A stretch of 64,000 nt of DNA from Seleniivibrio woodruffii (GTDB taxonomy: Bacteria > Chrysiogenota > Deferribacteres > Deferribacterales > Geovibrionaceae): positions 868,770 through 932,769 of the forward strand of contig NZ_SMGG01000003.1 of the NCBI RefSeq assembly GCF_004339245.1, in the 5' to 3' direction. Positions 27,651 to 46,257 of this stretch are shown in pieces. How positions within the stretch are numbered: the first letter of the stretch is position 1; each line of letters starts with the position of its first letter. Position numbers and translations under genes: made by a program. The notes beneath the pieces were generated by a model. That model had not been told where the DNA came from. It searched no databases and saw only the letters and a program-made list of their open reading frames with translations.

Positions 27651-28280
27651 ATGAAAATGAATCATACATTCTTAATATTAACATTTGTTGCAATAGCATT
27701 TTTTGGTCTTTTTGGGATTGGATATGCTCAGAATGGGAACAGCGAAGCTGAAAATAATACGAGCTCAGCCATGAGCTGTGATTCGTATTCCGGCTGTATT
27801 TCTCTTGGACTTAAAGAGAGAGGCGCAGGAAAAGAATCTGTTCTGCTGTATTTTTCTGAAAGTGTTAAGGAATCCAGATATAATATCTTTGACAATATCA
27901 GTCTCCGTTTGTCCAGCAATACCTGTCCTCCAATTATCAGCGTATATAAAAAGGTTAATAATGTGAATTACATTATGGATGTTTTCACTGGTAATCAGTC
28001 TAACGGCTGTGTTAAATATTTTGCAAATGTTACAGGCGACAACAGAGACCGTGACTCTATTGTCGGGCAGTTGGAAGTTACCTATTGTAACGATGATGAA
28101 CTCTTTGAGAGTTGCAGGCAGGGTATTATATATTCAAGGATTAATTCGTTTAAAAACGAAAAAAATAAAGAACAGATGCCCGGAACTTTTCCGGCACAGA
28201 GCCAAAATTTACCCATGGTAAATCAGCAGTCTGATATTTCAAATTATAATGGGAATGGACAGATCCCCCTGCAAAGGTAG
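27651..28280 (+). CDS. Exported protein of unknown function
   Basis: This 209-residue protein starts at ATG 27651 after AAGGTG, eight bases past the exporter stop. A signal peptide (about 1-26, ending GYAQ) is followed by a domain with six Cys in conserved-looking pairs (MSCDSYSGCISL, NTCPP, NGCVKY, YCNDDELFESCRQG), suggesting disulphides in the periplasm, and a Gln/Asn/Pro-rich tail. I recognise no family. Co-transcription with the exporter suggests a role in assembly or attachment of the polysaccharide. Confidence 0.65.
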   Translation: MKMNHTFLILTFVAIAFFGLFGIGYAQNGNSEAENNTSSAMSCDSYSGCISLGLKERGAGKESVLLYFSESVKESRYNIFDNISLRLSSNTCPPIISVYKKVNNVNYIMDVFTGNQSNGCVKYFANVTGDNRDRDSIVGQLEVTYCNDDELFESCRQGIIYSRINSFKNEKNKEQMPGTFPAQSQNLPMVNQQSDISNYNGNGQIPLQR

Positions 28281-29533: not shown

Positions 29534-30727
29534 ATGTCAGAACAGATACTTGAACTGATAGGAAGAAAAGAAGAACTTTTTACAGACGATATATCTCGGT
29601 TTGAAAATGAGTTGCAAGAAATCGTCGCTAATTCTACGTTTCTTGTAATTGGAGGCGCAGGCTCAATCGGTCAGGCTGTAGTTAAAGAGATATTCAAACG
29701 CAATCCTTTAAAACTTCATGTCGTGGATATAAGTGAGAATAATCTTGCGGAGCTGGTTCGGGATATAAGAAGCTCTTTCGGATATATAAACGGTGATTTT
29801 CGCACTTTTGCTTTAGACGCAGGTGCTGCGGAATATGATGCTTTTATCAGGAGCGACGGCAAATATGACTATGTTCTTAACCTATCTGCCCTGAAACACG
29901 TCAGAAGCGAAAAAGACCCATATACCCTAATGAGGCTTATACGCACTAACGTATCCAATACGGAGAAGACCGTGATGGATTCAGTTAACAACGGTTCTAA
30001 GAAGTATTTTTGCGTTTCAACGGATAAGGCTGCTAATCCTGTTAATATGATGGGTGCTTCCAAAAGGATAATGGAGATGTTCCTGATGAGGCTCAGCACT
30101 GAAATTCCCATTTCCACTGCCAGATTTGCCAATGTTGCATTTTCAGACGGCTCCCTGATGTTTGCTTTTAATCAAAGGATTCAGAAGCGTCAGCCCATCG
30201 CTGCTCCAAATGATATTAAAAGGTATTTTGTAACGCCTAAAGAATCGGGCGAACTTTGCCTTATGAGCTGCCTGCTTGGAGAGAACAGAGATATCTTCTT
30301 TCCTAAACTTAGTGAAAAACTCCATCTGATAACTTTTGCTGAAATAGCGGTTAAGTACCTTTCAATGATAGGTTACGAACCATATCTGTGCTCAACCGAG
30401 GAGGAGGCCAGATCGAAAGTTCTGGAGTTGATAGATAAAAAGAAATGGCCGTGTTTGTTTACCACCAGCGACACCTCCGGAGAAAAAGATTTTGAAGAAT
30501 TTTATACAGATAATGAAATTCTTGATATGGAGCGGTTTAATAACCTAGGTATTATTAAGAATGACTGTATTTACGATGAGGCGGTCATTGACAATTTTAG
30601 GAATTCAATAAACTCAATGCTTGCACGTGGAAGCTGGACAAAAAGAGAGATTGTTGATTTATTCAATAAAACCATTCCCGAATTTAAACACATTGAGACC
30701 GAAAAGTATTTAGACGGGAAAATGTAA
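29534..30727 (+). CDS. legB: NDP-HexNAc 4,6-dehydratase (LegB/FlaA1-like)
   Basis: A 397-residue dehydratase of the FlaA1/CapD family. The NAD loop is GGAGSIGQAV; STDKAANPVNMMGASK carries the Asp-Lys pair and the Met-x3-Lys that replaces the usual Tyr-x3-Lys in FlaA1-type enzymes. It is followed immediately (TAATG overlap) by a LegC-like aminotransferase and then NeuB- and NeuC-type genes, which points to the legionaminic acid pathway rather than pseudaminic acid. The product would be a 4-keto-6-deoxy-HexNAc nucleotide; the nucleotide is probably GDP, because ptmE is nearby. Confidence 0.8.
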   Translation: MSEQILELIGRKEELFTDDISRFENELQEIVANSTFLVIGGAGSIGQAVVKEIFKRNPLKLHVVDISENNLAELVRDIRSSFGYINGDFRTFALDAGAAEYDAFIRSDGKYDYVLNLSALKHVRSEKDPYTLMRLIRTNVSNTEKTVMDSVNNGSKKYFCVSTDKAANPVNMMGASKRIMEMFLMRLSTEIPISTARFANVAFSDGSLMFAFNQRIQKRQPIAAPNDIKRYFVTPKESGELCLMSCLLGENRDIFFPKLSEKLHLITFAEIAVKYLSMIGYEPYLCSTEEEARSKVLELIDKKKWPCLFTTSDTSGEKDFEEFYTDNEILDMERFNNLGIIKNDCIYDEAVIDNFRNSINSMLARGSWTKREIVDLFNKTIPEFKHIETEKYLDGKM

Positions 30728-31872
30728 TGGCTGATTTTGCTGAGATAACAAACTTTATAAAAAATCTTTTTGGTGACAGTTTTGTTCCTCTGCATGAACC
30801 CAGATTCAGCGGGAATGAGAAAAAATATCTGAATGACTGCATTGATTCCACGTTTGTTTCAAGTGTCGGGAAATATGTCGACAGGCTTGAAAAGGATTTT
30901 GCGGAATACACCGGTTCCGGCTATTCTGTGGCCGCAGTTAACGGGACATGTGCTCTTCATACTGCTTTAAAAGTTGTTGGAGTAAACTCCGGAGATGAAG
31001 TGCTTACACAGCCGTTAACTTTCATAGCTACGGCAAATGCTATAAGCTATTGCGGAGCATCACCGGTTTTTATTGATGTGGATTTAGATACTCTTGGAAT
31101 GAGTCCTGAGTCGCTTTCAGATTTTCTTAATGCAAATTGCAGCCTTGTCGGTGGTAAATGTGTTAACAGTGCGACAGGCAAAGTTATAAAAGCTTGTGTG
31201 CCTATGCATACTTTTGGTCATCCTTGCAGGATAGATAAGATATGTGAGATCTGCGCTGAGTGGCATATCCCTGTCATAGAAGATGCTGCGGAAAGCCTTG
31301 GGAGCACATATAAAGGCAGGCACACCGGCACATTCGGCATCTTAGGTGTTTTCAGCTTTAACGGCAATAAAATCATTACGTCCGGCGGGGGCGGGGTGAT
31401 CGTTACTGATGACGAGCTCCTGGCAAGACGTGCTAAGCATATAACAACAACTGCAAAACAGCCTCATAAGTGGGAATATGTTCACGATGAGGTCGGATTT
31501 AACTATCGTATGCCTAATTTGAATGCTGCTCTGTTGTGTGCACAGCTTGAACAGGTTGATGGCTTTCTCAAAAATAAGCGGGAACTTGCAGATATATACA
31601 GAAGGTTCTTTGAGACTTCAAATATTGAGTTTTTTAAAGAACCTGATTGTGCGAATTCTAATTACTGGCTGAATGCAGTGATTTTATCAGGATTAAAAGA
31701 GCGTGACAATTTTCTTGAATATTCTAACTCAAATGGTGTGATGACACGCCCAATATGGCGGCTTATGAATAAACTCAGCATGTTTTCCGACTGTTTTTCC
31801 GCCGATCTTAAGAATTCCGAATATCTTGAAGAGAGGGTCGTCAATATTCCGAGCAGTGCGAGGCTCGGGTGA
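30727..31872 (+). CDS. legC: LegC-family PLP aminotransferase
   Basis: The 381-residue aminotransferase of the DegT/DnrJ/EryC1/StrS class has the cofactor-binding EDAAESLGS and FSFNGNKIITSGGGG, where Lys215 should form the PLP Schiff base. It belongs to the LegC-like subgroup by neighbourhood (legB before it, legI and legG after). It would aminate C4 of the keto sugar. After its stop there are 60 non-coding bases. Confidence 0.82.
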   Translation: MADFAEITNFIKNLFGDSFVPLHEPRFSGNEKKYLNDCIDSTFVSSVGKYVDRLEKDFAEYTGSGYSVAAVNGTCALHTALKVVGVNSGDEVLTQPLTFIATANAISYCGASPVFIDVDLDTLGMSPESLSDFLNANCSLVGGKCVNSATGKVIKACVPMHTFGHPCRIDKICEICAEWHIPVIEDAAESLGSTYKGRHTGTFGILGVFSFNGNKIITSGGGGVIVTDDELLARRAKHITTTAKQPHKWEYVHDEVGFNYRMPNLNAALLCAQLEQVDGFLKNKRELADIYRRFFETSNIEFFKEPDCANSNYWLNAVILSGLKERDNFLEYSNSNGVMTRPIWRLMNKLSMFSDCFSADLKNSEYLEERVVNIPSSARLG

Positions 31873-31932: not shown

Positions 31933-32928
31933 ATGAGCATATTTATAATTGCTGAAGCGGGTGTAAACCATAACGGCGATATTGAGACAGCAAAAAAACT
32001 TATTGATGCTGCCGTGGAAGCCGGGGCTGATGCGGTTAAATTTCAGACTTTTAAAGCTGAAAAGATTGTAAGCAGAACTGCCGATAAAGCTGATTATCAG
32101 AAAGCGGCAACTGGCTCGGATGAATCACAGTATGATATGATCAAAAAACTGGAACTTGATAAGGAATCGCATTTTAAGCTTATGGAGCATTGCGTTAACA
32201 GAAATATTATGTTTCTTTCAACTCCTTTTGATCATGACAGTATAGAATTGCTCAGTGGGATGGGGCTTGAAATATTCAAGGTACCCAGCGGGGAGATCAC
32301 AAATTTACCCTATTTAAGACACATAGGTAGCCTGAAGAAAAAAGTAATTCTCTCCACAGGAATGGCTGATCTCGGCGAGATAGAGGATGCTCTCAATATT
32401 CTTATAGATGCCGGAACTGAAAAAGATAATATAACTGTTTTACATGCCACCACTGAATACCCGTGCCCTCTTGATGAGGTCAACCTCAGAGCTATGCTGA
32501 CGATAAAGAATGCGTTCAATGTCAGCATTGGTTATTCGGATCACACGAAAGGGATTGAAATTCCTGTTGCTGCCGCAGCACTTGGAGCAGATGTCATAGA
32601 AAAGCACTTTACTCTGGATAGAATGATGGAAGGACCTGACCATAAAGCCAGCCTTGAACCGGACGAACTTTGTGCGATGGTTAAGGCGATACGGAATATT
32701 GAACTCGCCATTGGGGATGGAATAAAGAGACCCAGCCGGAGCGAGATAAAGAATAAATTGGTTGCAAGAAAGAGTATTGTTGCATCATGCAATATAAAAA
32801 AAGGTGATACTCTGTCGTATGATAATGTGACTGTTAAGCGTCCCGGAGGGGGCATCAGCCCTATGAGATGGGACGAAGTCATCGGTTCTGAGGCCGGTAA
32901 AGACTATATGCAGGACGAGCTGATATGA
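31933..32928 (+). CDS. legI: Legionaminic/neuraminic acid synthase (NeuB/LegI)
   Basis: A 331-residue synthase that condenses a 6-carbon sugar with phosphoenolpyruvate to a nonulosonic acid. The barrel starts with AEAGVNHNGD, followed by AVKFQTF, STPFD, KVPSGEITNLPYL, ATTEYPCP and GYSDHTKGIE; the C-terminal antifreeze-like (SAF) domain is at about 275-331 (ARKSIVASCNIKKGD). All match NeuB-type enzymes. Substrate specificity (legionaminic versus neuraminic) is inferred from legB and legC. Confidence 0.92.
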   Translation: MSIFIIAEAGVNHNGDIETAKKLIDAAVEAGADAVKFQTFKAEKIVSRTADKADYQKAATGSDESQYDMIKKLELDKESHFKLMEHCVNRNIMFLSTPFDHDSIELLSGMGLEIFKVPSGEITNLPYLRHIGSLKKKVILSTGMADLGEIEDALNILIDAGTEKDNITVLHATTEYPCPLDEVNLRAMLTIKNAFNVSIGYSDHTKGIEIPVAAAALGADVIEKHFTLDRMMEGPDHKASLEPDELCAMVKAIRNIELAIGDGIKRPSRSEIKNKLVARKSIVASCNIKKGDTLSYDNVTVKRPGGGISPMRWDEVIGSEAGKDYMQDELI

Positions 32929-34112
32929 GTCGGAAAAAAGTCTGTGTGGTCACAGGCACAAGAGCTGAATATGGTCTTCTCTACTGGCTCATGAAAGGAA
33001 TAGTGGAAGACCCTGAACTTGAGCTTCAGGTTATTGTGACAGGCATGCATATGAGTCCTGAGTTTGGTCTCACATATATGGATGTTGAAAAAGAATTTAA
33101 AATTAACAAGAAGATAGAAATTCTTCTGTCTTCTGATACACCTGTTGGGATCTCGAAATCTATGGGCTTGGCAATGGTTTCCTTTTGTGAGGCATATGAA
33201 GAACTCAGACCGGATATCCTTATCGTATTGGGAGACAGGTTTGAAATTTTCAGTGCGGCAGCAGCAGCTGTCCCTGCCAGAATCCCTATAGCCCATCTGC
33301 ATGGAGGCGAATCTACCGAAGGTGTCATTGATGAGGCTATCAGACACAGCATAACAAAGATGAGTCACTTGCATTTTACGGCTACAGAGGCCTACAGAAA
33401 AAGAGTTATTCAACTTGGTGAATCTCCTGAAAGGGTGTTTTGTGTCGGCGGAATGGGCATCGAAAACATCAAGCGACTTAAACTGCTTTCAAAAGAAGAG
33501 TTTGAAAAGTCGATAGATTTCAGGCTGACAGACAAAAACTTGCTTGTTACGTTCCATCCGGTGACTCTGGAACAGTCCACGGCTGAAAACCAATTTCTTG
33601 AACTTCTTGAGGCAATCAGCTGCCTGGAAAACACACATACCATATTTACAAAAGCAAACAGCGATACCGATGGAAGGATAATTAACTGGCTGATCGATGA
33701 ATACACAGCTAAGCACAGTGATATATCGGTTGCTTTTAACTCTTTAGGGCAACTCAGATATCTTAGTGCATTGCAGTTTGTTGATGCTGTGGTGGGCAAC
33801 AGTTCAAGTGGTTTAATCGAAGCTCCTTCATTTAAAATAGGTACAATTAATATAGGCGACAGGCAGAGAGGACGCATAAAAGCGGAGAGCGTGTTAGACT
33901 GTAAATCTGAAAAACACGACATACTGAATGCTATAAATACTCTTTATTCAGAAGAGTTTCAGCTTAAATTGAAGAATGTTGCCAATCCTTATGGTGAAGA
34001 ATGCGCGAGTCGGAATATAATCAATATAATAAAGAAAACTGATTTAAGTAGTATCCTTGCAAAAAAGTTTTATGATCTTGAGTTCAATATCGGAGAGATG
34101 TTATTATCTTAA
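32925..34112 (+). CDS. legG: NDP-HexNAc 2-epimerase, hydrolysing (NeuC/LegG)
   Basis: The 395-residue enzyme has GTRAEYGLL at the N-terminus, VLGDRFEIFSAA, LHGGESTEGVIDEAIRHSIT, FHPVTLE and GNSSSGLIEAP, the usual motifs of hydrolysing UDP-GlcNAc 2-epimerases of the NeuC type. It removes the nucleotide and inverts C2 to give the synthase substrate. It overlaps legI by four bases. Confidence 0.9.
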   Translation: MSRKKVCVVTGTRAEYGLLYWLMKGIVEDPELELQVIVTGMHMSPEFGLTYMDVEKEFKINKKIEILLSSDTPVGISKSMGLAMVSFCEAYEELRPDILIVLGDRFEIFSAAAAAVPARIPIAHLHGGESTEGVIDEAIRHSITKMSHLHFTATEAYRKRVIQLGESPERVFCVGGMGIENIKRLKLLSKEEFEKSIDFRLTDKNLLVTFHPVTLEQSTAENQFLELLEAISCLENTHTIFTKANSDTDGRIINWLIDEYTAKHSDISVAFNSLGQLRYLSALQFVDAVVGNSSSGLIEAPSFKIGTINIGDRQRGRIKAESVLDCKSEKHDILNAINTLYSEEFQLKLKNVANPYGEECASRNIINIIKKTDLSSILAKKFYDLEFNIGEMLLS

Positions 34113-34154: not shown

Positions 34155-35216
34155 ATGCTTAATGATTTTGCAAAACTGATCATTGACTCTTCTGCAACTG
34201 TAAAAGATGCGATGAGAAAACTTGATGAAACATCTTTGAAGATACTTTTTGTCGTTGAAAACGGGAATGTGTTGCTCGGTTCTTTGAGTGACGGCGATAT
34301 ACGTCGCTGGATACTGCGAGACGGACAGCTCAGTGCGACGGTCGGCGAGGTTTGTTTTAAAGAAACTTTCTTTGCTACAGTGCCTTATAATATTGAAGAC
34401 GTAAAAGACGAGATATACCGAAGAAAAATATTATATGTTCCGGTTGTATCAAAAACAAAAGAGATCAAAGAGTTTCTTATCTGGGATAAGCTCTTCGCTA
34501 ATATGAAGAGAAATGTTAATGATAAACTTGATGCCGATGTTGTCATCATGGCCGGTGGAAAAGGAACGAGACTTGAACCGTTCACAAAGGTGCTTCCTAA
34601 ACCTCTGATACCTGTGAACGATAAGACGATTCTTGAGCATATCATTGATAAGTTTCTGGATTTTAATGTTTGTAGTTTTTATATGTCTATAAACCATAAG
34701 GCAGTTATAATAAAAGCATATTTTGAAGAGCTCAATCCGCCGTATACCATTACATATATTACTGAGAATAAGCCCCTAGGAACAATAGGTGCTGTTCGGC
34801 AGCTAGCTGGAAAGATTGAAAAGGAACTCATTCTCACCAACTGCGATATACTGATAGACGCTGATTATCACGATATACTTGCGAGCCACAGACAGCTCGG
34901 AAACCATGTGACCATGGTTGCATCTCTGAAACAGTATAAAATTCCTTACGGCGTATGTGAGATACAGAATGGTGAACTGGTGCGTATGAAAGAAAAGCCG
35001 GAATATGATTTTCTGGTTAACACCGGTATGTATGTTATAAATAAAGAGATGCTCGAACTTATTCCGGAAGATACATATTTTGATGCAACTCAGTTTCTTG
35101 ACAAAGTGAAAGAGAGCGGATTTAAGGTCGGAATTTATCCCATAAGTGAAGAATCATGGACCGATATCGGCGAATGGGCTGAATATCGCAAGGCAGTTTC
35201 AAAAATCCAGCTTTAA
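34155..35216 (+). CDS. ptmE: PtmE-like nucleotidyltransferase with CBS pair
   Basis: The 353-residue protein joins an N-terminal CBS pair (about 1-118, SLSDGDIRRWIL and VPVV) to a nucleotidyltransferase (about 125-350; MAGGKGTRLEPFTKVLPKPLIPV, NCDILID, NTGMYV). This architecture is that of Campylobacter jejuni PtmE, which makes GDP-glucosamine for the legionaminic pathway. RBS is AAGGAAAA. Its presence supports a GDP-based pathway. Confidence 0.82.
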   Translation: MLNDFAKLIIDSSATVKDAMRKLDETSLKILFVVENGNVLLGSLSDGDIRRWILRDGQLSATVGEVCFKETFFATVPYNIEDVKDEIYRRKILYVPVVSKTKEIKEFLIWDKLFANMKRNVNDKLDADVVIMAGGKGTRLEPFTKVLPKPLIPVNDKTILEHIIDKFLDFNVCSFYMSINHKAVIIKAYFEELNPPYTITYITENKPLGTIGAVRQLAGKIEKELILTNCDILIDADYHDILASHRQLGNHVTMVASLKQYKIPYGVCEIQNGELVRMKEKPEYDFLVNTGMYVINKEMLELIPEDTYFDATQFLDKVKESGFKVGIYPISEESWTDIGEWAEYRKAVSKIQL

Positions 35217-35244
35217 CAGCCGGATACAACTTATGGGAGGACTT

Positions 35245-36174
35245 TTGAAAGCGCTTATTATCGGTTTCGGTTCCATTGGAAAAAGACATTATGATATCCT
35301 TTGCGGTCTTATCGGCAGCGGGAATGTCGGAGTTGTCAGCAGAAGGGAAACTGGCCTTGATAAATCATACGGATCTTTAGCGGAAGTCACCGATATAAAT
35401 GAATACGGTTATTTTGTTATAGCATCAAAAACCTGCGAACATTTTGAAGATCTCTGTCATATCAATAACTCAGTTGAAGATAAAATCATTCTCTGCGAGA
35501 AACCACTGTTTGAAAGATCAAGGAGTATGGTAAGCCTTAAAAATCACGTGTATGTCGGTTATAATCTGCGTTTTCATCCGGTTGTGATGAAGTGCAGGGA
35601 ATTACTGGGCATATACGGGAAAGTTTTGTTTGTACGCAGTTATGTTGGTCAGTATTTACCTTCATGGCGTCCGGGAACCGACTACCGTGACTCTTACAGT
35701 GCTAAAAAAGAGGAAGGTGGCGGCATAATGATGGATTGCAGTCACGATATTGATATTATCAGGTTTCTTTTCGGACGTATCGTTTCTTTCAACGCTTACA
35801 ACGACAAAATATCAGATCTTGAAATTACTTCGGACGATTATTTTTCAATGATAGGGAGGACGGAAGGTGGAGTGCTTTTTTCACTGAATATGGATTATAT
35901 ATCAAAAAAAGCAGCCAGAGTAATCGAGATTAATACCGAAGAAGCAACCATTGTGGCGGACATCATAGGCAAAACAATAACCTTGACTACAAGAAGCGGT
36001 GAAACTGAAATTATGCATTTCCCTGAAATCGATAGAAATACAACTTATACTGCGATGCATGAGTCAATAATTGAAAAAAAGGACAACCATTGTGCGGATT
36101 ACGCAGATGGATTAGATATTGCATCGATATTCGATAATGTCAGAAAAAATAATCTTAAACAGGTATGGCAATGA
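35245..36174 (+). CDS. ptmF: PtmF-like Gfo/Idh/MocA oxidoreductase, first copy
   Basis: A 309-residue NAD-binding oxidoreductase: LIIGFGSIGKRH, CEKPLF and YNLRFHPVV. I start it at TTG 35245, after GGGAGGA, because the second copy in this window starts at the equivalent residue (MKALIIG). ATG 35233 in the same frame would add four residues and lacks a good ribosome site. It belongs to a ptmE-ptmF-ptmB-ptmA run as in C. jejuni; PtmF function there is only partly defined. Confidence 0.8.
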   Translation: MKALIIGFGSIGKRHYDILCGLIGSGNVGVVSRRETGLDKSYGSLAEVTDINEYGYFVIASKTCEHFEDLCHINNSVEDKIILCEKPLFERSRSMVSLKNHVYVGYNLRFHPVVMKCRELLGIYGKVLFVRSYVGQYLPSWRPGTDYRDSYSAKKEEGGGIMMDCSHDIDIIRFLFGRIVSFNAYNDKISDLEITSDDYFSMIGRTEGGVLFSLNMDYISKKAARVIEINTEEATIVADIIGKTITLTTRSGETEIMHFPEIDRNTTYTAMHESIIEKKDNHCADYADGLDIASIFDNVRKNNLKQVWQ

Positions 36175-36869
36175 AAATATTGTGTACTATTCTTGCTCGC
36201 GGAGGCTCCAAAGGCGTAAAAAACAAGAATATTAAATCTATTCTCGGCAAACCTCTTATTCACTATACGATAGAACAGGCGATTGCTTCAGGGTTGTTTA
36301 CCCATATTGTGGTCAATAGTGATTCAGAAGAAATTCTTAATGTTGCTTCAGAGATAAATGGAATAGACACCGTGATTAGGCCATCTGAGTTGGCAACTGA
36401 TACCAGTGCGAAGCTGCCTGCCATAATATATACCGTAAATGAAATGGAAAATCGGCACAACACGGTTTATGACATTGTTGTAGATTTGGATTGCACTTCC
36501 CCCCTTAGAGATGTTGAAGACATTAAGAATGCATTCGATAGTTTTGCCAGCAATGGTAATTTGAATCTTATAACTGCAATGCCAGCCCGTAGGTCCCCAT
36601 ATTTCAACATGGTGAAACTTGATGAAAATGGCAGTGCGGTACTTGTAAACAGAACAGATTCTCATGTTGTCAGGAGGCAGGATGCTCCTGAGTGCTTTGA
36701 TATGAACGCATCCATCTATATATGGAAAAGAGATGTGTTGCTGAACAGCACTACTTTGTTTCTGGGTAATACCGGACTGTATGTTATGCCTGAGGAAAGA
36801 TCCATAGATATTGATACTCACTTAGATTTTGAGTTTGTCGAATTTTTGCTGAGGAAGAAAAATGCTTAA
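36171..36869 (+). CDS. ptmB: CMP-nonulosonate cytidylyltransferase (LegF/PtmB), first copy
   Basis: A 232-residue cytidylyltransferase with ILARGGSKGVKNKNI (nucleotide loop), LIHYTIEQA, DLDCTSPLRDVEDI and RRSPYFNM, as in NeuA and LegF. It activates the nonulosonic acid as a CMP-sugar. ATG 36171 gives an ATGA overlap with ptmF and the same length as the second copy; ATG 36165 is also possible. A diverged paralogue is at 56291-56989. Confidence 0.87.
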   Translation: MKILCTILARGGSKGVKNKNIKSILGKPLIHYTIEQAIASGLFTHIVVNSDSEEILNVASEINGIDTVIRPSELATDTSAKLPAIIYTVNEMENRHNTVYDIVVDLDCTSPLRDVEDIKNAFDSFASNGNLNLITAMPARRSPYFNMVKLDENGSAVLVNRTDSHVVRRQDAPECFDMNASIYIWKRDVLLNSTTLFLGNTGLYVMPEERSIDIDTHLDFEFVEFLLRKKNA

Positions 36870-37632
36870 AGATAAGGTAATTGTTATAACTGGCGGTGCA
36901 GGCAGACTAGGCATAGAATTCGCTTCAGCCGTTATTGAAAACGGAGGATATGCAGTTATTGCGGACGTGAACGATGAGGTTGGAAATGCGGCTGTATCTT
37001 CAATTGCAGAGAAATATAATATCGATCGTATCTTTTTCGTAAACCTCGATATAAGTTCTGTCGAATCTCTTGAAAAATTGATAGACAGTGTTGATAGCAA
37101 GTTTAAACGCATAGATGGACTTGTTAACAGTGCCTATCCAAGAAATAAGAATTACGGCAGGCATTTTTTTGATGTTGAATACAGTGATTTCTGTGAGAAT
37201 GTTTCCATGAATCTTGGTGGATATTTTCTTGCCTGCCAGAAATTTTCGCAATACTTTAAAAAGCAGGGATATGGTAATATTGTTAACATATCGTCAATCT
37301 ATGGAGTTATTGCTCCAAAATTTGAGATTTACGATAACACACCAATGACAATGCCTGTTGAGTATGCAGCGATAAAATCTGGTCTTCTAATGCTGACCCA
37401 GTATATGGCAAAATATTTCAGAGGAATGAATATTCGTGTCAACGCCCTCAGTCCTGGCGGAATACAGGATGGACAGCCAGAGTCTTTTTTGAGTGCTTAT
37501 AAGAATGTATGCCTTAATAAAGGGATGCTTGACAAAACCGATATCAGCGGGGCACTTGTATTTTTGCTTAGCGAAATGAGTCAGTATATTAACGGACAGA
37601 ATATTATCGTTGATGATGGTTTCAGTATATAG
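36862..37632 (+). CDS. ptmA: PtmA-like short-chain dehydrogenase, first copy
   Basis: The 256-residue SDR has the NAD(P) loop GGAGRLGIEF, NSAYPRNKNYG, the catalytic Ser (NISSIYG) and Tyr-x3-Lys (VEYAAIKSG). NSAYPRNKNYGRHFFDV is identical in the second copy at 56983-57735. In C. jejuni ptmA is part of the flagellin glycosylation cluster. It overlaps ptmB by eight bases, RBS GAGGAAG. Confidence 0.85.
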   Translation: MLKDKVIVITGGAGRLGIEFASAVIENGGYAVIADVNDEVGNAAVSSIAEKYNIDRIFFVNLDISSVESLEKLIDSVDSKFKRIDGLVNSAYPRNKNYGRHFFDVEYSDFCENVSMNLGGYFLACQKFSQYFKKQGYGNIVNISSIYGVIAPKFEIYDNTPMTMPVEYAAIKSGLLMLTQYMAKYFRGMNIRVNALSPGGIQDGQPESFLSAYKNVCLNKGMLDKTDISGALVFLLSEMSQYINGQNIIVDDGFSI

Positions 37633-37659: not shown

Positions 37660-37968
37660 ATGGATAGTATTAAAGTTGCATTGATTGGTGCTGGCCAGCT
37701 TGGGAGCAGGCATCTTCAGGCTTTGGCATTCAGCCAAAGCACTACAGATATTTCTGAGACCAAAAAAGATAAGTTAGTTAACTCTGAAGAGGATTATATC
37801 AGAGAATATAATGGAAATATCTACGACGAAACTCCAAATAAAGCTATATGCATAGATATTTGTCAATACGGAAGCGATATTCTGCTTGAACACAATATTT
37901 ACTTGAGTGAGTACAGTAATAAAATTATTGCTGACAAGATTTTTAAAAACGGAAACCATGTTCAATAA
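37660..37968 (+). pseudogene. Truncated or internally deleted Gfo/Idh/MocA oxidoreductase
   Basis: A 102-codon frame with a good start (AGGTGC before ATG). The first 24 residues are a typical nucleotide-binding start ([18 protein letters not shown]), but the fold does not continue: residues 25-102 are charged and A+T-coded with no motif I know. The family is usually 300 residues or more. I read this as a remnant after deletion; a small diverged protein is less likely. The flippase start codon lies inside its end. Confidence 0.65.
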
Positions 37969-39223
37969 ACTACTTAAAAACTCATTCATCTATGTATTAG
38001 GGGATGTCTTAAACAAGTCGATACCATTTTTTATGCTTCCAGTGCTTACTAGATATCTCACTCCTGAAGACTACGGAACGATTGCCTCTTTTTCAGCACT
38101 TGTTTCTGCTTTTGCTGTTTGCTCCGGTCTCAGCGTACATGGAGCTGTTAATGTTAATTTTTTCAGGATAGGAAAAGAAGAGCTTAAGGAATACATAGGG
38201 AATACTATAATTATTCTCAATGTTTCAACTTTGGTAATTTTTGCAATTACTTTTGTAGTGAGCCCTATAATCGGTGAAAAACTTAAGCTTCCCACTGAAT
38301 GGATCTTGATTGCAGTTATTCTTGCATTTGCTCAATTTCTTACAACAATCAATCTTGTGCTCTGGACAGCAGAACAAAAGCCTAAACAATACACGATATA
38401 TCAGCTTTCTCAGACCCTATTGTTCGCTACTCTTTCGCTGACGTTCATCGTTGCTTTGAAAATGGACTGGAAGGGCCAGTTAATTGCACAAAGTATAGGC
38501 ACCATCCTTTTTGCGGGTTTCAGCTTTCTTTTTATCATAAAAAGAGGTTACCTAAGATTTAAAATGAACCGTGAGTACATTTCTGACGCTTTAAAATTTG
38601 GTATTCCTCTTATTCCTCACCAACTATCAATGTGGCTCAAAACTGGCTCTGACAGGGTAATCCTGATGTCTTTGGTAGGAAGCGCAGAAACAGGCATTTA
38701 CTCTGTCAGTTATCAGATAGGTACAGTGATTAGTGTTCTTGTGGCGGCATTTAACAAGGCTTGGAGTCCATATCTGTATAGAGTGCTTTCAGAAGAACCT
38801 AAAATTGAGACCAAGTTAAAGCTGGTTAATTTTACCTACATATACATGGCGGCAATAGTTGTAATCGCACTTTTATTTTCTCTATCTGGAAAATATCTTA
38901 TTCCATTCTTTCTTGGAGAAAGATTTGCGTCTTCCATGAAATATCTGGTTTATTTCAGTATGGCATTTGCCTTTCAAGGAATGTATTGTATGGTTGCTAA
39001 CTATATGTTTTATGCGAAAAAAACAAATCTCATCTCTTATGTTACCTTTACAACTTCTCTACTTCATGTTGCTATGACTTATACATTTACTAAGCTCTAC
39101 GGGTCGATAGGTGCTGCCTATTCAACTTTGATATCTTATTTTTTGACATTCATATCTATTTGGTATGTTAGTAATAAAGTTTATCCAATGCCTTGGTTTT
39201 TTAGAATTAAGTCAAATCAATGA
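37958..39223 (+). CDS. wzx: Wzx-type polysaccharide flippase
   Basis: The 421-residue protein has about 12 hydrophobic helices and the N-terminus [21 protein letters not shown] with [15 protein letters not shown], common in Wzx/MATE-like O-unit flippases. I choose ATG 37958, 17 codons inside the open frame, overlapping the remnant gene. It would move lipid-linked repeat units across the inner membrane. Strong A+T codon use. Confidence 0.9.
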
Positions 39224-39230
39224 GAGTACA

Positions 39231-39929
39231 ATGGACAAAAAATCAATATTAATTTTGGGTTCTAAACCTGATCCAATTATTCCAAAGAAAGATTACGATA
39301 CTGTAGTTTTCGTAAACGGTAGTATTCACTTAAAAAATGATAAAATAACCAGTCGGCAAGTGGTCCATATTATGTCTTCATCAATATTGTTTGGTGAGTC
39401 ATTGCTTATAGAAAAAACGGTTGATTGTTTTCGCAATAAGAGTGTTGATGAGGCCGTTGTTATTACCTACTTCCCTGATAAAAAAAGTATTGAAGATATA
39501 AGTAAAAGATTGCTAGAACTAAACTATACTTACAATAGAATTACGCTATATTCTCCGGAAGAATTTGAGCAGAAATTTCTTTTTTTCTCACATGTTCAAT
39601 ATTGGAAAACTTTTTTGATCAATATATTTAATAAAAACTTTAGCTGTAAGGAAAAAATTAATACAGCAAGGTCATATCTGAGGGGAAGGGTGCATCTTTC
39701 TACTGGTTTTTTTAGTATTTTCTATGCTTTAAAAGAGAAAGATATAGCGGAGGTTGTTGTTAGCGGTATAGGTATGGTAACAGGTGGGTATAGTTATTTA
39801 TCAGGATATAGGGGTCATCAATATAAAGACTTCATTGCTCTACAGCTACTAAAAAATACAGGATATGTTTCTAGGCTTAATTTTACAGACTCAGAGTTAA
39901 ATAAAATTGGTTTACAGTATAATGATTAA
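39231..39929 (+). CDS. Candidate sialyltransferase-like (GT42-like) glycosyltransferase
   Basis: A 232-residue soluble protein. The start ILILGSKPDP with VVFVNGSI resembles the nucleotide-site start of Campylobacter CstI/CstII (GNGPSL and after), STGFFSIFYALKEKDIAEVVVSGI (157-180 region) resembles their helix-strand segment, and GHQYKD (His196, Asp200) sits where CstII has the catalytic-His segment GHSKNTD. A transferase for CMP-nonulosonate is needed by the preceding leg genes. This is a motif-level guess; it could be another small transferase family. Confidence 0.4.
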   Translation: MDKKSILILGSKPDPIIPKKDYDTVVFVNGSIHLKNDKITSRQVVHIMSSSILFGESLLIEKTVDCFRNKSVDEAVVITYFPDKKSIEDISKRLLELNYTYNRITLYSPEEFEQKFLFFSHVQYWKTFLINIFNKNFSCKEKINTARSYLRGRVHLSTGFFSIFYALKEKDIAEVVVSGIGMVTGGYSYLSGYRGHQYKDFIALQLLKNTGYVSRLNFTDSELNKIGLQYND

Positions 39930-41070
39930 AGTTGAAACCATTTTTTTTTACATAGGCTTTTTTCTTTGTTTTCCATTTTTATATATTCCTATTGGTAGTA
40001 GTAATATCCGTTTTGAGGATATTGCTGTTTTGCTGCTTTTATTTTTTGCTTTTATATATAATAAAAAATTATTTTCAAAATCCATTCTTGTTTTCTCTAC
40101 CATATTTGTTCTTTTTATTGTTTATGGCCTTTCTCTGCGTCCTTTCTTTGATTTTAACTATGAGAATTATCCTCTAACCAGAATTGTTGGAATTACAATG
40201 TATTTCTTCGTCTTTGCATTTTATATGAAGCAAGAAGAGGTTAAAAGTCTCTGCAAAGGAGCTTTTGCTGGCTCATTATTGTCTGCGATAGTAATTCTAT
40301 CTGTCTTGCTTATGCATCTTGTAAATATAGGTTTTACTATAAGAAATATGTATGTATTCAAAGAATCTTTAAGGGGTATTTCAAGTTTTAACCCAAATAG
40401 CTATGGAGCTCTTATGGTTTTTGGCTCTTTTGCTTCATACTATCTATTCTCTCTTACAAAGAAGTCTATGTATAGATACGCAGCATGTTTCTTTCTACTT
40501 ATACCTTTCATATTGATTATCAGAAGAGATATTGTTGGTATTATATTCGCATTAATAAGTGTATTTTTTATTTCAAGGAATACAAGAACAAAAATTATTC
40601 TTTACCCTACTCTTATCATTATTTGTTTATATATTGGTTTCTCAGTAGTTAATTATCTGCAAGGATTAGACTCTTATAGATTTATGGCTCATAGAGATAC
40701 ACAGTATATCGCTGCACTGAGTGCTATTCAAGAAAATAAAATGGGTTATGGCTTGGGTTCTGAGACATTTATCATGAAAGATAGAATTAACAGAGAAGCG
40801 GTGACGCATAACTCATTCTTGTCCTTATCTCTTGATCTCGGATTGTTTAATGCGTTAGTTGTCCTCGGTATGATTGTTTTTATTTTTTTTAATATAAAAG
40901 ATAAGTGGTTTAAGTTTTATCTTATTGCATTTTTTATTCAAAGCCTTTTTGGCAGCGGTTTCTATTTCTTTAAGTATCACTATGTATTTGTTGCTATACT
41001 TCTATGTACTATGACTATTTCATGTAGGGGGCGTAACGATGAAAAAAATTCTACTATTCTCACCAAATAA
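39922..41070 (+). CDS. wzy: Wzy-type O-antigen/capsule polymerase
   Basis: A 382-residue protein with about 10-11 hydrophobic helices. ATG 39922 overlaps the preceding stop. A periplasmic loop with GISSFNPNSYGALM and a later YGLGSETF...HNSFLSLSLDLGLF, as in O-antigen polymerases and ligases, fits a Wzy role beside the Wzx flippase and Wzz. Such proteins are too variable for closer assignment. Confidence 0.82.
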   Translation: MIKVETIFFYIGFFLCFPFLYIPIGSSNIRFEDIAVLLLLFFAFIYNKKLFSKSILVFSTIFVLFIVYGLSLRPFFDFNYENYPLTRIVGITMYFFVFAFYMKQEEVKSLCKGAFAGSLLSAIVILSVLLMHLVNIGFTIRNMYVFKESLRGISSFNPNSYGALMVFGSFASYYLFSLTKKSMYRYAACFFLLIPFILIIRRDIVGIIFALISVFFISRNTRTKIILYPTLIIICLYIGFSVVNYLQGLDSYRFMAHRDTQYIAALSAIQENKMGYGLGSETFIMKDRINREAVTHNSFLSLSLDLGLFNALVVLGMIVFIFFNIKDKWFKFYLIAFFIQSLFGSGFYFFKYHYVFVAILLCTMTISCRGRNDEKNSTILTK

Positions 41071-42169
41071 TTGGGACTCTCCTTTAAAATATCAAAGACA
41101 CCATTTAGCAGAATATTTGGCTGATCAGGAATCTGTTGAATGTGTTTATTTCTTATCAAAAGTGGCAGTTCGAAAACTTAAGATAAGTGATTTTATTAAA
41201 ATGTTATTTAGTAAGTTGCTATCGAGAAAAGTTAGCATAGAGCGTAAGAAGCATGATAAAATTTCTATTGTTAATTATGGATTGATACCGTATCAGTTCA
41301 AAATACTTAATCATTTTCTTAAAAAAAAGTTTTTTAGAAAAATTGCAGCCTTGAATTTAGTTGCAGATGAAATAGTCATTATATCATACCAGCCCTTTCC
41401 TGAACTACTAGAACTAGTTGAGAGACTTAAACCAACTAAATTTATTTATATTTCTGTACATGATTATGAAAATATGACCAGCGTGTGTAAAGAAGTAATG
41501 AAAACCGAACAGGCAATTATTAAGAGAGCAGATCTCTTCTCTACAGATTCCTATTCTCTTTTTGAAAAACTTTCAGGTAAATCTGTATCCGAACGTGTTA
41601 TAACGCTCGCACCTGCATGTCCAACATCTGTTTTAAAGAAATCAAAAGATACTAAGTATGAAAAAAATGAGATACGAAAGTTAATTTATTTCGGTACTAT
41701 TGCAAACTATCTTGATTGGGACTTTATAAATAAAGCCTTTTCTGATGGCTTTCGTATTGATTTTTTGGGCTATGAATATGACTTTAATCTTGCAAGTAAT
41801 CTTCCTGAATCAAAAAGATACGATCCTACAGATTTTGAGAATGCGTATGAAATATTCATGCAATATGATGCTATAATACTGCCATACTTAATTGGTGACA
41901 GAAACCAGCATGTTTTGCCAGCAAAAATATATGAATGCTTCTCATTAGGGCTTCCTGTATTTGCTCCTGATATGCTTTGGGTGAAGGCAAAAGATATTAA
42001 TGACTTTGTATTTACTTATGAAAATTTTGATGACTTTAGGTGTAAAGTAAATAGTTTCGATATGCAAGGATTTCAGATAATACGTGAGCATATGCTTGGT
42101 GTGGCTGAAAATAACAGGTGGGAAAAAAGATTTGAACCTCTTTTTAGGTTTATTCAGGAGTCAAAATGA
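41039..42169 (+). CDS. Glycosyltransferase (GT4-like fold)
   Basis: A 376-residue protein of GT-B shape. Beginning KKILLFSPNNWDSPLKYQRHHLAEYLA, later YFGTIANYLDWDFI, then LPYLIGDRNQHVLPAKIYECFSLGLPVFAP, the acidic-loop region that binds the sugar nucleotide in this class. RBS GGGGGCG. Sugar and linkage are unknown. It overlaps wzy by 32 bases and the next gene by four. Confidence 0.82.
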   Translation: MKKILLFSPNNWDSPLKYQRHHLAEYLADQESVECVYFLSKVAVRKLKISDFIKMLFSKLLSRKVSIERKKHDKISIVNYGLIPYQFKILNHFLKKKFFRKIAALNLVADEIVIISYQPFPELLELVERLKPTKFIYISVHDYENMTSVCKEVMKTEQAIIKRADLFSTDSYSLFEKLSGKSVSERVITLAPACPTSVLKKSKDTKYEKNEIRKLIYFGTIANYLDWDFINKAFSDGFRIDFLGYEYDFNLASNLPESKRYDPTDFENAYEIFMQYDAIILPYLIGDRNQHVLPAKIYECFSLGLPVFAPDMLWVKAKDINDFVFTYENFDDFRCKVNSFDMQGFQIIREHMLGVAENNRWEKRFEPLFRFIQESK

Positions 42170-43377
42170 AGAAAATCCTCAATCATTTTCCATGGATAAA
42201 GGATAAAATTAAGACTATTTATCTATATCTCAAATACATAAAATATGGTAAAAGCTATCGCCAAAAAAGCCAACATGATTTTATAAAAATATCATTAAAT
42301 GATGAAGAGTCTTTTTTTGGCTATTATGATAAGTTTCCTCAGCAAAATAATAATATACTATTTTATAGTACTCCACTTAAAACATCTGAGCTTCCTTCTC
42401 CTAATGTTCCATTAAAAATTTGTATATATGACACAATAGATTCTACTGCGAGAATTGCTACGACAACAATGAGTTATAATTGGCAACAGGGTTGTAGAGC
42501 ACATTGGATTGACACTAATAAATTTATTTATAATGATTTTGTTGAAAACTCTTATCAAGCTATTGTTTTTGATATCAAGCAAAATAGAAAAATAATGCAA
42601 TACGATAAACCTGTTCAGGATAGTTATAAAGATATTTACTTTTTATCTTTAAATTACCGTAGGCTGAGAACTCTACGACCTGATTACGGATATTATAATT
42701 TACCAGGTATGTCCAAAAAGGAACTGCAGTCGCTAGATAATGATGGTGTATGGTATGTAGACATGCGTACGGGCAAATCAAACCTCTTGATAAAATTTAA
42801 TGATATCATAGATATGAATGAAGAATCTCTTTCTGGTGTTCTTCATAAAATAAACCATGTGATGATTTCTCCAGATGGAGATAAGTTTGTTTTTATGCAC
42901 AGATGGTTCTGCAATAACAAAAAATATGATCGTCTTTTTTTATCTGATTTGAAAGGTAATACTAGATTGTTGGCTGATTATGGGATGGTAAGTCATTATT
43001 CATGGGTGACTAATGATGTCCTTTTCGGGTACATGGCAGGTCCAGAAGGAAATGGATATTATAGTATAAATGTTAATGATGGTGCCATCATGAAATTTAA
43101 AGACTTAAATATTAGACAATATGGTGATGGCCATCCCTCATGTAATAAAAGTGGATTTATTACTGATACTTATCCAGATAAAGGACGAATTCAGTATCTA
43201 CTCCGCTATTCTTTTGATAACAATGATTATGAATGTCTTGGAGAATTTTTCCACGGTGTTAGCTATAGTAATGAGTCACGTTGTGATCTTCACCCTCGAT
43301 ATAATCATGAATACAGGTCAGTATTTTTTGATTCTATTTTTACAGGGCGTAGACAGCTATATATGATGGGGCTATAA
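42166..43377 (+). CDS. Beta-propeller-like protein in the glycan cluster
   Basis: This 403-residue protein has no signal peptide. Blade-like repeats such as FFGYYDKFPQ, HVMISPDGDKFVFMHRW, YSWVTNDVLFGYM and RCDLHPRYNHEYRSVFFDS recall TolB and oligogalacturonate-lyase type propellers. Proteins of this kind occur now and then in O-antigen loci. Its position between two glycosyltransferases and its overlaps suggest a cytoplasmic part in repeat-unit assembly, but the activity is unknown. Confidence 0.6.
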   Translation: MKKILNHFPWIKDKIKTIYLYLKYIKYGKSYRQKSQHDFIKISLNDEESFFGYYDKFPQQNNNILFYSTPLKTSELPSPNVPLKICIYDTIDSTARIATTTMSYNWQQGCRAHWIDTNKFIYNDFVENSYQAIVFDIKQNRKIMQYDKPVQDSYKDIYFLSLNYRRLRTLRPDYGYYNLPGMSKKELQSLDNDGVWYVDMRTGKSNLLIKFNDIIDMNEESLSGVLHKINHVMISPDGDKFVFMHRWFCNNKKYDRLFLSDLKGNTRLLADYGMVSHYSWVTNDVLFGYMAGPEGNGYYSINVNDGAIMKFKDLNIRQYGDGHPSCNKSGFITDTYPDKGRIQYLLRYSFDNNDYECLGEFFHGVSYSNESRCDLHPRYNHEYRSVFFDSIFTGRRQLYMMGL

Positions 43378-44186: not shown

Positions 44187-44271
44187 TATATAGACATAGA
44201 AGTATTACTTGGTAACAAAATACGGATAATCATGATGCAGTGTTGACTAAACTGATATTATGGAGACTTCA

Positions 44272-46257
44272 ATGAGATATAGGGCAGATATTGACGGATT
44301 GCGTTCAGTAGCTATAATTCCAGTTGTTCTTTACCATGCTGGAATGAATATGTTTTCTGGCGGCTTTATAGGTGTTGATGTTTTCTTCGTTATATCCGGA
44401 TATCTTATAACATCTATTATTCTGAATGATATTGAAAAAGATAAGTTCTCCATATCGCAGTTTTATTTCAGACGAATCAAGCGTATTTTTCCTGCACTAT
44501 ATTTTTTTCTGACAGTTACAACCTTATTTTGTTTTTTCTTCTATCTCCCGGAAGATTTTAGAGCCTACGGAAAAAGCCTCTTCGGTTCGGTATTCTTCAT
44601 ATCAAATATTGTATTCTGGCGAGAGAGCGGATATTTTGATACGTCATCTGAGATGAAACCGCTTCTGCATACTTGGTCTCTTTCGGTGGAAGAGCAGTTC
44701 TATATTTTTTACCCGGTAATGCTTCTGATTCTGGCTAAATACTTTAAAAAACGCTATTCAGGTGCTGTTATCGTTGTTTTTATTCTTTCTTTCATGCTGA
44801 GTATTTTTGCTACCCCAAAAGCTGCATCAGCATCTTTTTATCTTTTACCCACAAGAGCCTGGGAACTTATGTTAGGTGCTCTTCTTGCTTTAAACGTTTT
44901 GCCGCAGACGAACAACTTCAAATTACTGAACATTGCTTCATTGTGTGGAATTACGATGGTCTTAATCGGAGTGTTCGCTTATGACCAGTCCACTCTGTTT
45001 CCCGGTATTGCTGCATTGCTTCCTTGCGGCGGGACAGCTTTGATAATATATTCCGGCATTTCGGACTCACAAAAACCTTTCATTAATCGTCTTCTTTCTT
45101 TTAAATTGTTTGTAATTATAGGACTTGTTTCATATTCATGGTATCTCTGGCACTGGGCATTATTTGCTTTCAAAAATTATTATCATGGCGTTCTCAGAGA
45201 CATGTTCTTTTTATCTACACCTTTTCTTATCGTTCTGTCTCTGGTGTTAGCTTTCGTTTCTTATTTTGTAATCGAAAAACCATTCAGAGATATAAAATGG
45301 GAAAATAGAAAAATGGTTTTTGCCGGTGCTTTTCAGGTTATGGCTGTCGCCGGGATAGTTGCTTTGGTTATATGGACTCAAAAAGGATTTCCGGATAGAT
45401 TTTCCGACAGGATTGCAGATTTGTCTGCGGCAGGAAAAGACATGATCAGCATGGAAGAATACAATAGGAAGAACGGATTGGAGCACCTTGATAAAAACAG
45501 ATTCTACATTCTTGGCGATAAAAATACTCGTCCGTCTTTCGTTTTGCTGGGTGATTCAATAGCGCATTCTGTTGCTCCCGGAATAGGGATGCTGGCATCT
45601 GAATCAGGAAAATCCGGTTATCTCTTTTCAAATGCTGCAACACTGCCTGTTCTGGATGTATATGCCATTAATAAAGCTACTAATCCTGAAAAATTTCTCA
45701 GGCGTGTATTTGAAATTATAAATGGGGATGAGAATATTAAAACAGTTATTATAGCTGCCCGCTGGCAGGGCTATCTTAATCTGTGGGAGATATATTCTAC
45801 AGATAGCAACGGTAAAATGAGCCCAGTCGACTTAAAGGACAGAAAGGAGCTTATTGCTGAAGAGCTTAAAAAAACTGTTGAGCTTTTGAGATCAAAAAAT
45901 AAGAATGTGCTTGTGATAGGAAATTTGCCTGAAAGTAAAGTCAATATCCCTGACAGCATTGTAAAATCACAATATATTGCTGAACAATATCCGAAATTAT
46001 ATAAAGTTCCCGATATTGCACCTTCATATGAAAATAACGTTGAAACAAGAAGATCGGTTGAGGATATTTTTAAATATATTAAGAATATTGACAATGTCCG
46101 TTTCATATACCCTGATGATGTTCTGTGCAAAGAGAATAAATGTGAATTTGCCGATTCCGAAATGCGTTCGTTCTATGCGGATAACAGCCATCTGACTTCA
46201 TACGGCGCACAATATATCTTTAAAAAGAAGGCGACAACTGTGGTTCCATTGCTCTGA
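44272..46257 (+). CDS. OafA-like acyltransferase with SGNH domain
   Basis: A 661-residue membrane enzyme. The N-terminal acyltransferase-3 domain (about 1-350, ten helices) has RYRADIDGLRSVAIIPVVLYHAG with the catalytic His and GVDVFFVISGYLIT. The C-terminal SGNH hydrolase domain has VLLGDSIAHS (Ser) and DNSHLTSYGA (Asp/His). It O-acetylates a surface sugar in the periplasm. ATG 44272 follows GGAG; ATG 44260 in frame is less likely. Confidence 0.93.
   Translation: MRYRADIDGLRSVAIIPVVLYHAGMNMFSGGFIGVDVFFVISGYLITSIILNDIEKDKFSISQFYFRRIKRIFPALYFFLTVTTLFCFFFYLPEDFRAYGKSLFGSVFFISNIVFWRESGYFDTSSEMKPLLHTWSLSVEEQFYIFYPVMLLILAKYFKKRYSGAVIVVFILSFMLSIFATPKAASASFYLLPTRAWELMLGALLALNVLPQTNNFKLLNIASLCGITMVLIGVFAYDQSTLFPGIAALLPCGGTALIIYSGISDSQKPFINRLLSFKLFVIIGLVSYSWYLWHWALFAFKNYYHGVLRDMFFLSTPFLIVLSLVLAFVSYFVIEKPFRDIKWENRKMVFAGAFQVMAVAGIVALVIWTQKGFPDRFSDRIADLSAAGKDMISMEEYNRKNGLEHLDKNRFYILGDKNTRPSFVLLGDSIAHSVAPGIGMLASESGKSGYLFSNAATLPVLDVYAINKATNPEKFLRRVFEIINGDENIKTVIIAARWQGYLNLWEIYSTDSNGKMSPVDLKDRKELIAEELKKTVELLRSKNKNVLVIGNLPESKVNIPDSIVKSQYIAEQYPKLYKVPDIAPSYENNVETRRSVEDIFKYIKNIDNVRFIYPDDVLCKENKCEFADSEMRSFYADNSHLTSYGAQYIFKKKATTVVPLL

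Follow-up and report, generated by a model that had tools for sequence, protein, structure and literature searches.

Pathways for the synthesis of CMP-legionaminate are well known and transferases that use it are few; a 2020 paper (PMC7439481) states that no bacterial enzyme moving Leg onto cell surfaces had been reported. A polysaccharide locus of Seleniivibrio woodruffii, contained in a stretch of 64,000 nucleotides that we analysed as a whole (here, the window), raises the question in concrete form: which of its proteins transfers the sugar that its own genes activate? We focus on the 232-residue product of the gene at 39231–39929 on the plus strand, whose reading as a transferase of CMP-nonulosonate, built on the GT42/GT29 plan yet not within GT42 as that family is described, we put at a probability of roughly 0.7. 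If this reading is right, a compact transferase that no catalogue lists becomes a testable candidate, and some of the sialyltransferase superfamily escapes the profile libraries.

The gene is the tenth in a run of plus-strand open reading frames (ORFs), a count that leaves out a short oxidoreductase fragment at 37660–37968. The run opens with a LegB-type sugar nucleotide dehydratase (29534–30727, Polysacc_synt_2), which is followed by a LegC-family aminotransferase (30727–31872, TIGR04181), a NeuB/LegI-type nonulosonate synthase (31933–32928, TIGR03569) and a NeuC/LegG-type hydrolysing epimerase (32925–34112, TIGR03568), these three being called by NCBIfam models over their cut-offs. Next come a CBS-nucleotidyltransferase with a profile match (34155–35216), which we take to be PtmE-like; a Gfo/Idh/MocA oxidoreductase (35146–36174, family match), presumably PtmF-like from its position; and a CMP-nonulosonate synthetase (36165–36869) and a PtmA-like short-chain dehydrogenase (36862–37632), both of whose models score below cut-off (PseF model, 134.5 bits against 205.7; 284.7 bits against 350). 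These matches confirm that the operon upstream of the candidate makes a CMP-nonulosonate, as first annotated, and point to a legionaminate-type sugar without fixing it exactly: reading by eye through the ORFs listed from position 28000 on, down to a length of 90 residues, showed no LegH-type acetyltransferase.

Two genes of polysaccharide export and assembly flank the candidate. The wzx-type flippase (37907–39223, plus strand) matches PF01943 (Polysacc_synt) with 83.4 bits against a cut-off of 28.2; its coordinates start at a GTG, and the true start may lie further downstream. On the other side, a hydrophobic protein of 387 residues (39907–41070, plus strand), which probably starts at an ATG at 39922, within the last codons of the candidate gene, is without a Pfam match and is a probable wzy polymerase from its look and from a Wzy_C match at the equivalent position of the one relative described below. 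The first-pass annotation had placed the candidate between wzx and wzy, a statement that is secure for the former and probable for the latter. Between the PtmA-like gene and wzx, the 102-residue ORF at 37660–37968 starts like a Gfo/Idh oxidoreductase and closes with what resembles the tail of such an enzyme, as though an internal deletion had left a remnant of the gene.

The candidate gene itself is genuine, as had been claimed. From an ATG at 39231, eight bases past the final base of the wzx stop (39223), the ORF runs open to a TAA at 39929, and this start agrees with that of the relative; a longer ORF from the ATG at 39165 was set aside, as its extra part only reads into wzx.

No catalogued family accounts for the product. 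The window protein (P0001) has no match above cut-off in Pfam, NCBIfam or PHROGs, its relative has none in Pfam, and neither matches the Pfam models of GT42 (PF06002, CST-I), GT29, GT52, GT80 or Maf/DUF115 in hmmscan even at an E value of 10, so that the profile comparison with GT42, GT52 and GT80 proposed at first pass came back empty. A YtpI match of the window protein (19.3 bits, cut-off 29.4), absent from the relative, was dismissed as chance. BLASTP against CstII returned out-of-register pieces only, and a profile search of solved-structure sequences returned nothing relevant. With a profile built from seven GT42 sequences and searched by hmmsearch against 1272 ORFs, the relative reached 6.1 bits (E value 0.43) and the window protein 1.6 bits (E value 11), both outscored by a gene that is NeuB-like by eye (7.3 bits). 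PF06002 found no match in the candidate's own genome, in a search whose controls were also silent, and one weak match, under cut-off, across 384 genomes.

We found one relative, a protein of 220 residues (P0002) in a genome of the same order and a different family (G025), with 45% identity in the alignment. Its gene lies between a gene that is wzx-like by eye and one that matches Wzy_C (69.4 bits), where it closes an operon whose genes by eye are of LegB, LegC, NeuB and NeuC type, PtmE-like and for a CMP synthetase, and which also includes formyltransferase and PIG-L deacetylase genes (Pfam matches). The glycosyltransferase genes past wzy differ between the two loci. What persists is the set of CMP-nonulosonate synthesis, wzx, the candidate protein and wzy, which outlasts both divergence to 45% identity and the exchange of glycosyltransferases, two loci being few. 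Kept in both proteins in the pairwise alignment are LGSKP, Asn29, Gly159 and Gly195-His196, and conservation between two members says little.

We predicted both structures with AlphaFold2 from these two sequences only, and the models are of low confidence (pLDDT 57.3 and pTM 0.61, and pLDDT 57.9 and pTM 0.60, for the two proteins), with pLDDT below 50 in the segments ahead of the motif helix described below and around the His loop. Both run through their secondary structure in one succession: three strands and a group of helices, then a strand, a helix and a strand, four helices, a strand and a loop, and last a helix and a strand. When the relative's model was compared by VIA-align 2 with 999 of the 1000 top Foldseek-ranked chains, sialyltransferases filled 23 of the top 24 rows. 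The highest Z scores of all went to GT29 enzymes (ST6GALNAC2, ST3Gal1, ST6Gal1 and ST8SiaIII among the family; Z 8.3–9.9, rmsd 3.4–4.8 over 160–178 residues), and GT42 enzymes came close (Z 8.1–8.6, rmsd 4.7–5.0 over 168–183 residues), with CstII (15–17% identity) and CstI of Campylobacter jejuni and the Pasteurella multocida GT42 (9c08) as matches. In Foldseek itself, the best match of this model was ST8SiaIII (E value 7.1e-3, probability 0.91).

For the window protein's own low-confidence model, the best row was a LOG protein (Z 7.1 over 123 residues), not a sialyltransferase; sialyltransferases took 18 of the best 50 rows at Z 5.2–6.4 (GT42 chains 5.2–5.8, GT29 chains 5.8–6.4) with the longest alignments listed (159–183 residues), and Foldseek alone placed none among its best 50 rows. 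Because the proteins are 45% identical, we apply the relative's clearer result to both, though cautiously, since neither model is strong. The fold comparison with CstII suggested at first pass gave a clearer match for the relative than for the window protein, in each case from a low-confidence model, and the unrelated fold named there as refuting did not appear.

The leading alternative, which we regard as unlikely, is that the nonulosonate is the business of a different protein of the cluster and that the 232-residue protein adds another sugar or modifies the repeat unit. The product of 41039–42169, a protein of 376 residues, could fill this role: it resembles a GT-B glycosyltransferase by eye and has no useful match in Pfam or among solved structures, so the nonulosonate could be its donor, and nonulosonate transferases of GT-B type exist in GT38, GT52 and GT80, according to PMC5811610. 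Moreover, a legionaminate-type locus in another genome (L021 in G030) has no relative of the 232-residue protein and must use something else. Against this, a look through the ORFs of 150 residues or more in the relative's locus showed no evident counterpart of the 376-residue protein, whereas the 232-residue protein has one there, and the fold predicted for the relative points toward CMP-sugar enzymes.

The preferred reading, a transferase on the GT42/GT29 plan, also draws on motifs. In seven aligned GT42s, an [ST]G turn opens a helix, an Ala lies eight residues past the Ser/Thr and the following strand ends in G[IM]D. Residues 155–190 of the window protein (39693–39800, plus strand), an HLSTG helix and an EVVVSGIG strand, approximate this [ST]G-x6-A-x11-G[IM] arrangement, with one residue more and GI at the end; the relative has the exact spacing but GF. 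A looser pattern, [ST]G-x6-A-x(6-8)-[VIL]x[VIL]xG[IMF], is found in both proteins and all seven GT42s, never arises when either protein is shuffled 20000 times, and hits 10 of the 1272 ORFs (the window gene once, the relative's gene three times in overlapping loci, five GT42s and one unrelated gene, ThiD by eye), counts that overstate the case because the pattern was composed with the sequences in view. Unaided, hhalign picks the same register, setting window residues 155–190 on CstII 129–163. Its scores are not significant: against GT42, shuffled columns do as well 14 times in 200 and 13 times in 300, and against a GT29 chain 61 times in 300, and other ORFs score as high in 62 of 326 cases for the window protein and 37 of 326 for the relative. 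Sequence statistics by themselves do not prove homology.

Of the likeness to CstI and CstII first noted, the helix and strand stand, with approximate spacing, and the start loop does not. Residues 9–13 (39255–39269), in the first loop after strand 1, read LGSKP in both proteins at the place of the GT42 AGNGx, and the A-G-N-G-x-S with Asn9 that is invariant in the seven GT42s is absent, as is G[IM]D-x-Y (CstII Asp154 and Tyr156), replaced by GIGMV in the window protein and GFSRK in the relative. Asn29 (in VNGSI, 39315–39317), kept in both, may be the counterpart of CstII Asn31, which is invariant in seven of seven aligned GT42s. The GHQYKD with His196 (39816–39818) is present as described, and in the relative, which reads GHELQD, three of its six residues recur (G, H and D); since the His is the only invariant residue at this place in the seven GT42s, GHxxKD is not a GT42 signature. 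The conserved His lies 17 and 19 residues past the motif Gly in the two proteins, against 35–37 in the seven GT42s, and the tail after it is short (29–36 residues). We take the CstII lid, from its residue range, to fall within this Gly-to-His stretch. In both models a helix and then a strand come after the conserved His, as in CstII, which makes His196 the best candidate for the base. For CstII, PMC4202792 describes His188 as the general base and a lid that becomes ordered over CMP.

Both proteins share with GT42 the [ST]G helix leading to a strand and Gly, the later His with its helix and strand, and the nearby CMP-nonulosonate genes. The notion of a strongly diverged GT42 member is nevertheless not supported, given the missing PF06002 match, GSKP in place of AGNG, a G[IM]DxY that has lost its Asp and Tyr and a distance from Gly to His that is only half as great; the GT42-like plan and the transferase role are probably right, judging from the relative's fold and the context in a second family.

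The missing counterparts of CstII Asn9 and Asp154, invariant in the seven GT42s, would suit a sialyltransferase-like protein that is degenerate or non-catalytic and aids another enzyme, an explanation that we find improbable, as both ORFs are intact at 45% identity and LGSKP, Asn29, Gly159 and Gly195-His196 are strictly kept, as for an active site under selection. The one chain among the top 24 rows of the relative's model that is no sialyltransferase was a thiamin pyrophosphokinase (Z 8.7 over 121 residues); five further rows, four of them with that name, had Z 6.8–7.6, and all remaining rows Z of at most 4.5. As the sole other fold near the top, it raises a still slimmer chance that the proteins are nucleotide-binding or pyrophosphokinase-like kin of the thiamin pyrophosphokinase/MptE type and match sialyltransferases through a shared alpha/beta arrangement, but these alignments are shorter (121–125 against 160–183 residues), no Pfam match to such families appears even at an E value of 10 and both genomes place the gene in a polysaccharide locus.

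As a CMP-nonulosonate transferase, the protein would be a soluble or peripherally bound cytoplasmic enzyme of a single alpha/beta domain, inverting and metal-independent. Its donor would be the legionaminate-type CMP-nonulosonate from the operon directly upstream, and its acceptor a lipid-linked repeat unit, modified while still in the cytoplasm; flipping by wzx and polymerisation by wzy would come afterwards. We infer from the order of the elements that His196, as the equivalent of CstII His188, could act as the general base on the acceptor hydroxyl, and the CMP would be held by the LGSKP loop, Asn29 and the turn of Ser157-Thr158-Gly159.

Similar Z scores to GT29 and GT42 fit a further branch of the superfamily that joins them, any finer placement being beyond two sequences and weak models. 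The STG...AL...G(I/F) of the candidate is reminiscent of sialylmotif S in 2wnb and 6apj. Compared by eye with 2wnb, the candidate differs from GT29 in having neither the sialylmotif L sequence nor motif III, and in H-x3-D against H-x4-E; from the GT29 profile and sialylmotifs L, S, III and VS, the S-like segment was all that was seen. GT29 has some bacterial members, and the two families are held to be distantly related, as stated in PMC5811610. We raise tentatively, at somewhat below even odds, that the two proteins form a new glycosyltransferase family in the GT42/GT29 superfamily. Its enzymes would be compact and of legionaminate type, have a GSKP donor loop and a lid cut short, act on lipid-linked repeat units and stand between bacterial GT42 and GT29. 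The Maf/DUF115 transferases that place nonulosonates on flagellin would have their donor in common with the candidate; they are much longer than 232 residues, and the candidate's locus is of wzx/wzy type and not flagellar. One of them, Maf4, was later than the 2020 statement proposed as a putative legionaminyl transferase (PMC9298399).

Collections of genome contigs, viral contigs, plasmids and phages yielded no relatives, and a single-sequence search matched 2 of 99 whole genomes, its own included. A two-row profile matched 3 of 45 genomes of the order, 3 of 50 of the phylum, 3 of 384 related genomes, 7 of 397 from G090's phylum (taken, on a 16S probe, to be Campylobacterota) and 2 of 249 relatives of G156, in genome sets that overlap; every match other than those of the two true members was partial and reached no more than 20.2 bits. 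Four of these weak-match ORFs were inspected in translation and bore no resemblance, and the others were rejected on score alone. NeuB-domain matches occur in 45 of the 45 genomes of the order, many being distant synthases at about 40 bits, and the window locus and that of the relative rank third and second among them. The strongest lies in the legionaminate-type locus of G030, which does without the candidate protein, so the latter is one of several solutions. A 463-residue protein without a Pfam family that adjoins the operon there (L021:4359-5750, contig C46) is possibly that locus's own nonulosonate transferase.

The candidate's own genome has a second, isolated NeuC/NeuB-like pair on another contig (C5, L022:8039-10191), near which the rest of a nonulosonate operon was not seen among the listed ORFs of at least 180 residues. 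Further along the window's polysaccharide cluster, 42166–43377 encodes a 403-residue protein with no Pfam match at an E value of 1, and 44260–46257 a membrane acyltransferase that carries a fused SGNH domain, likely an O-acetyltransferase of the same polysaccharide.
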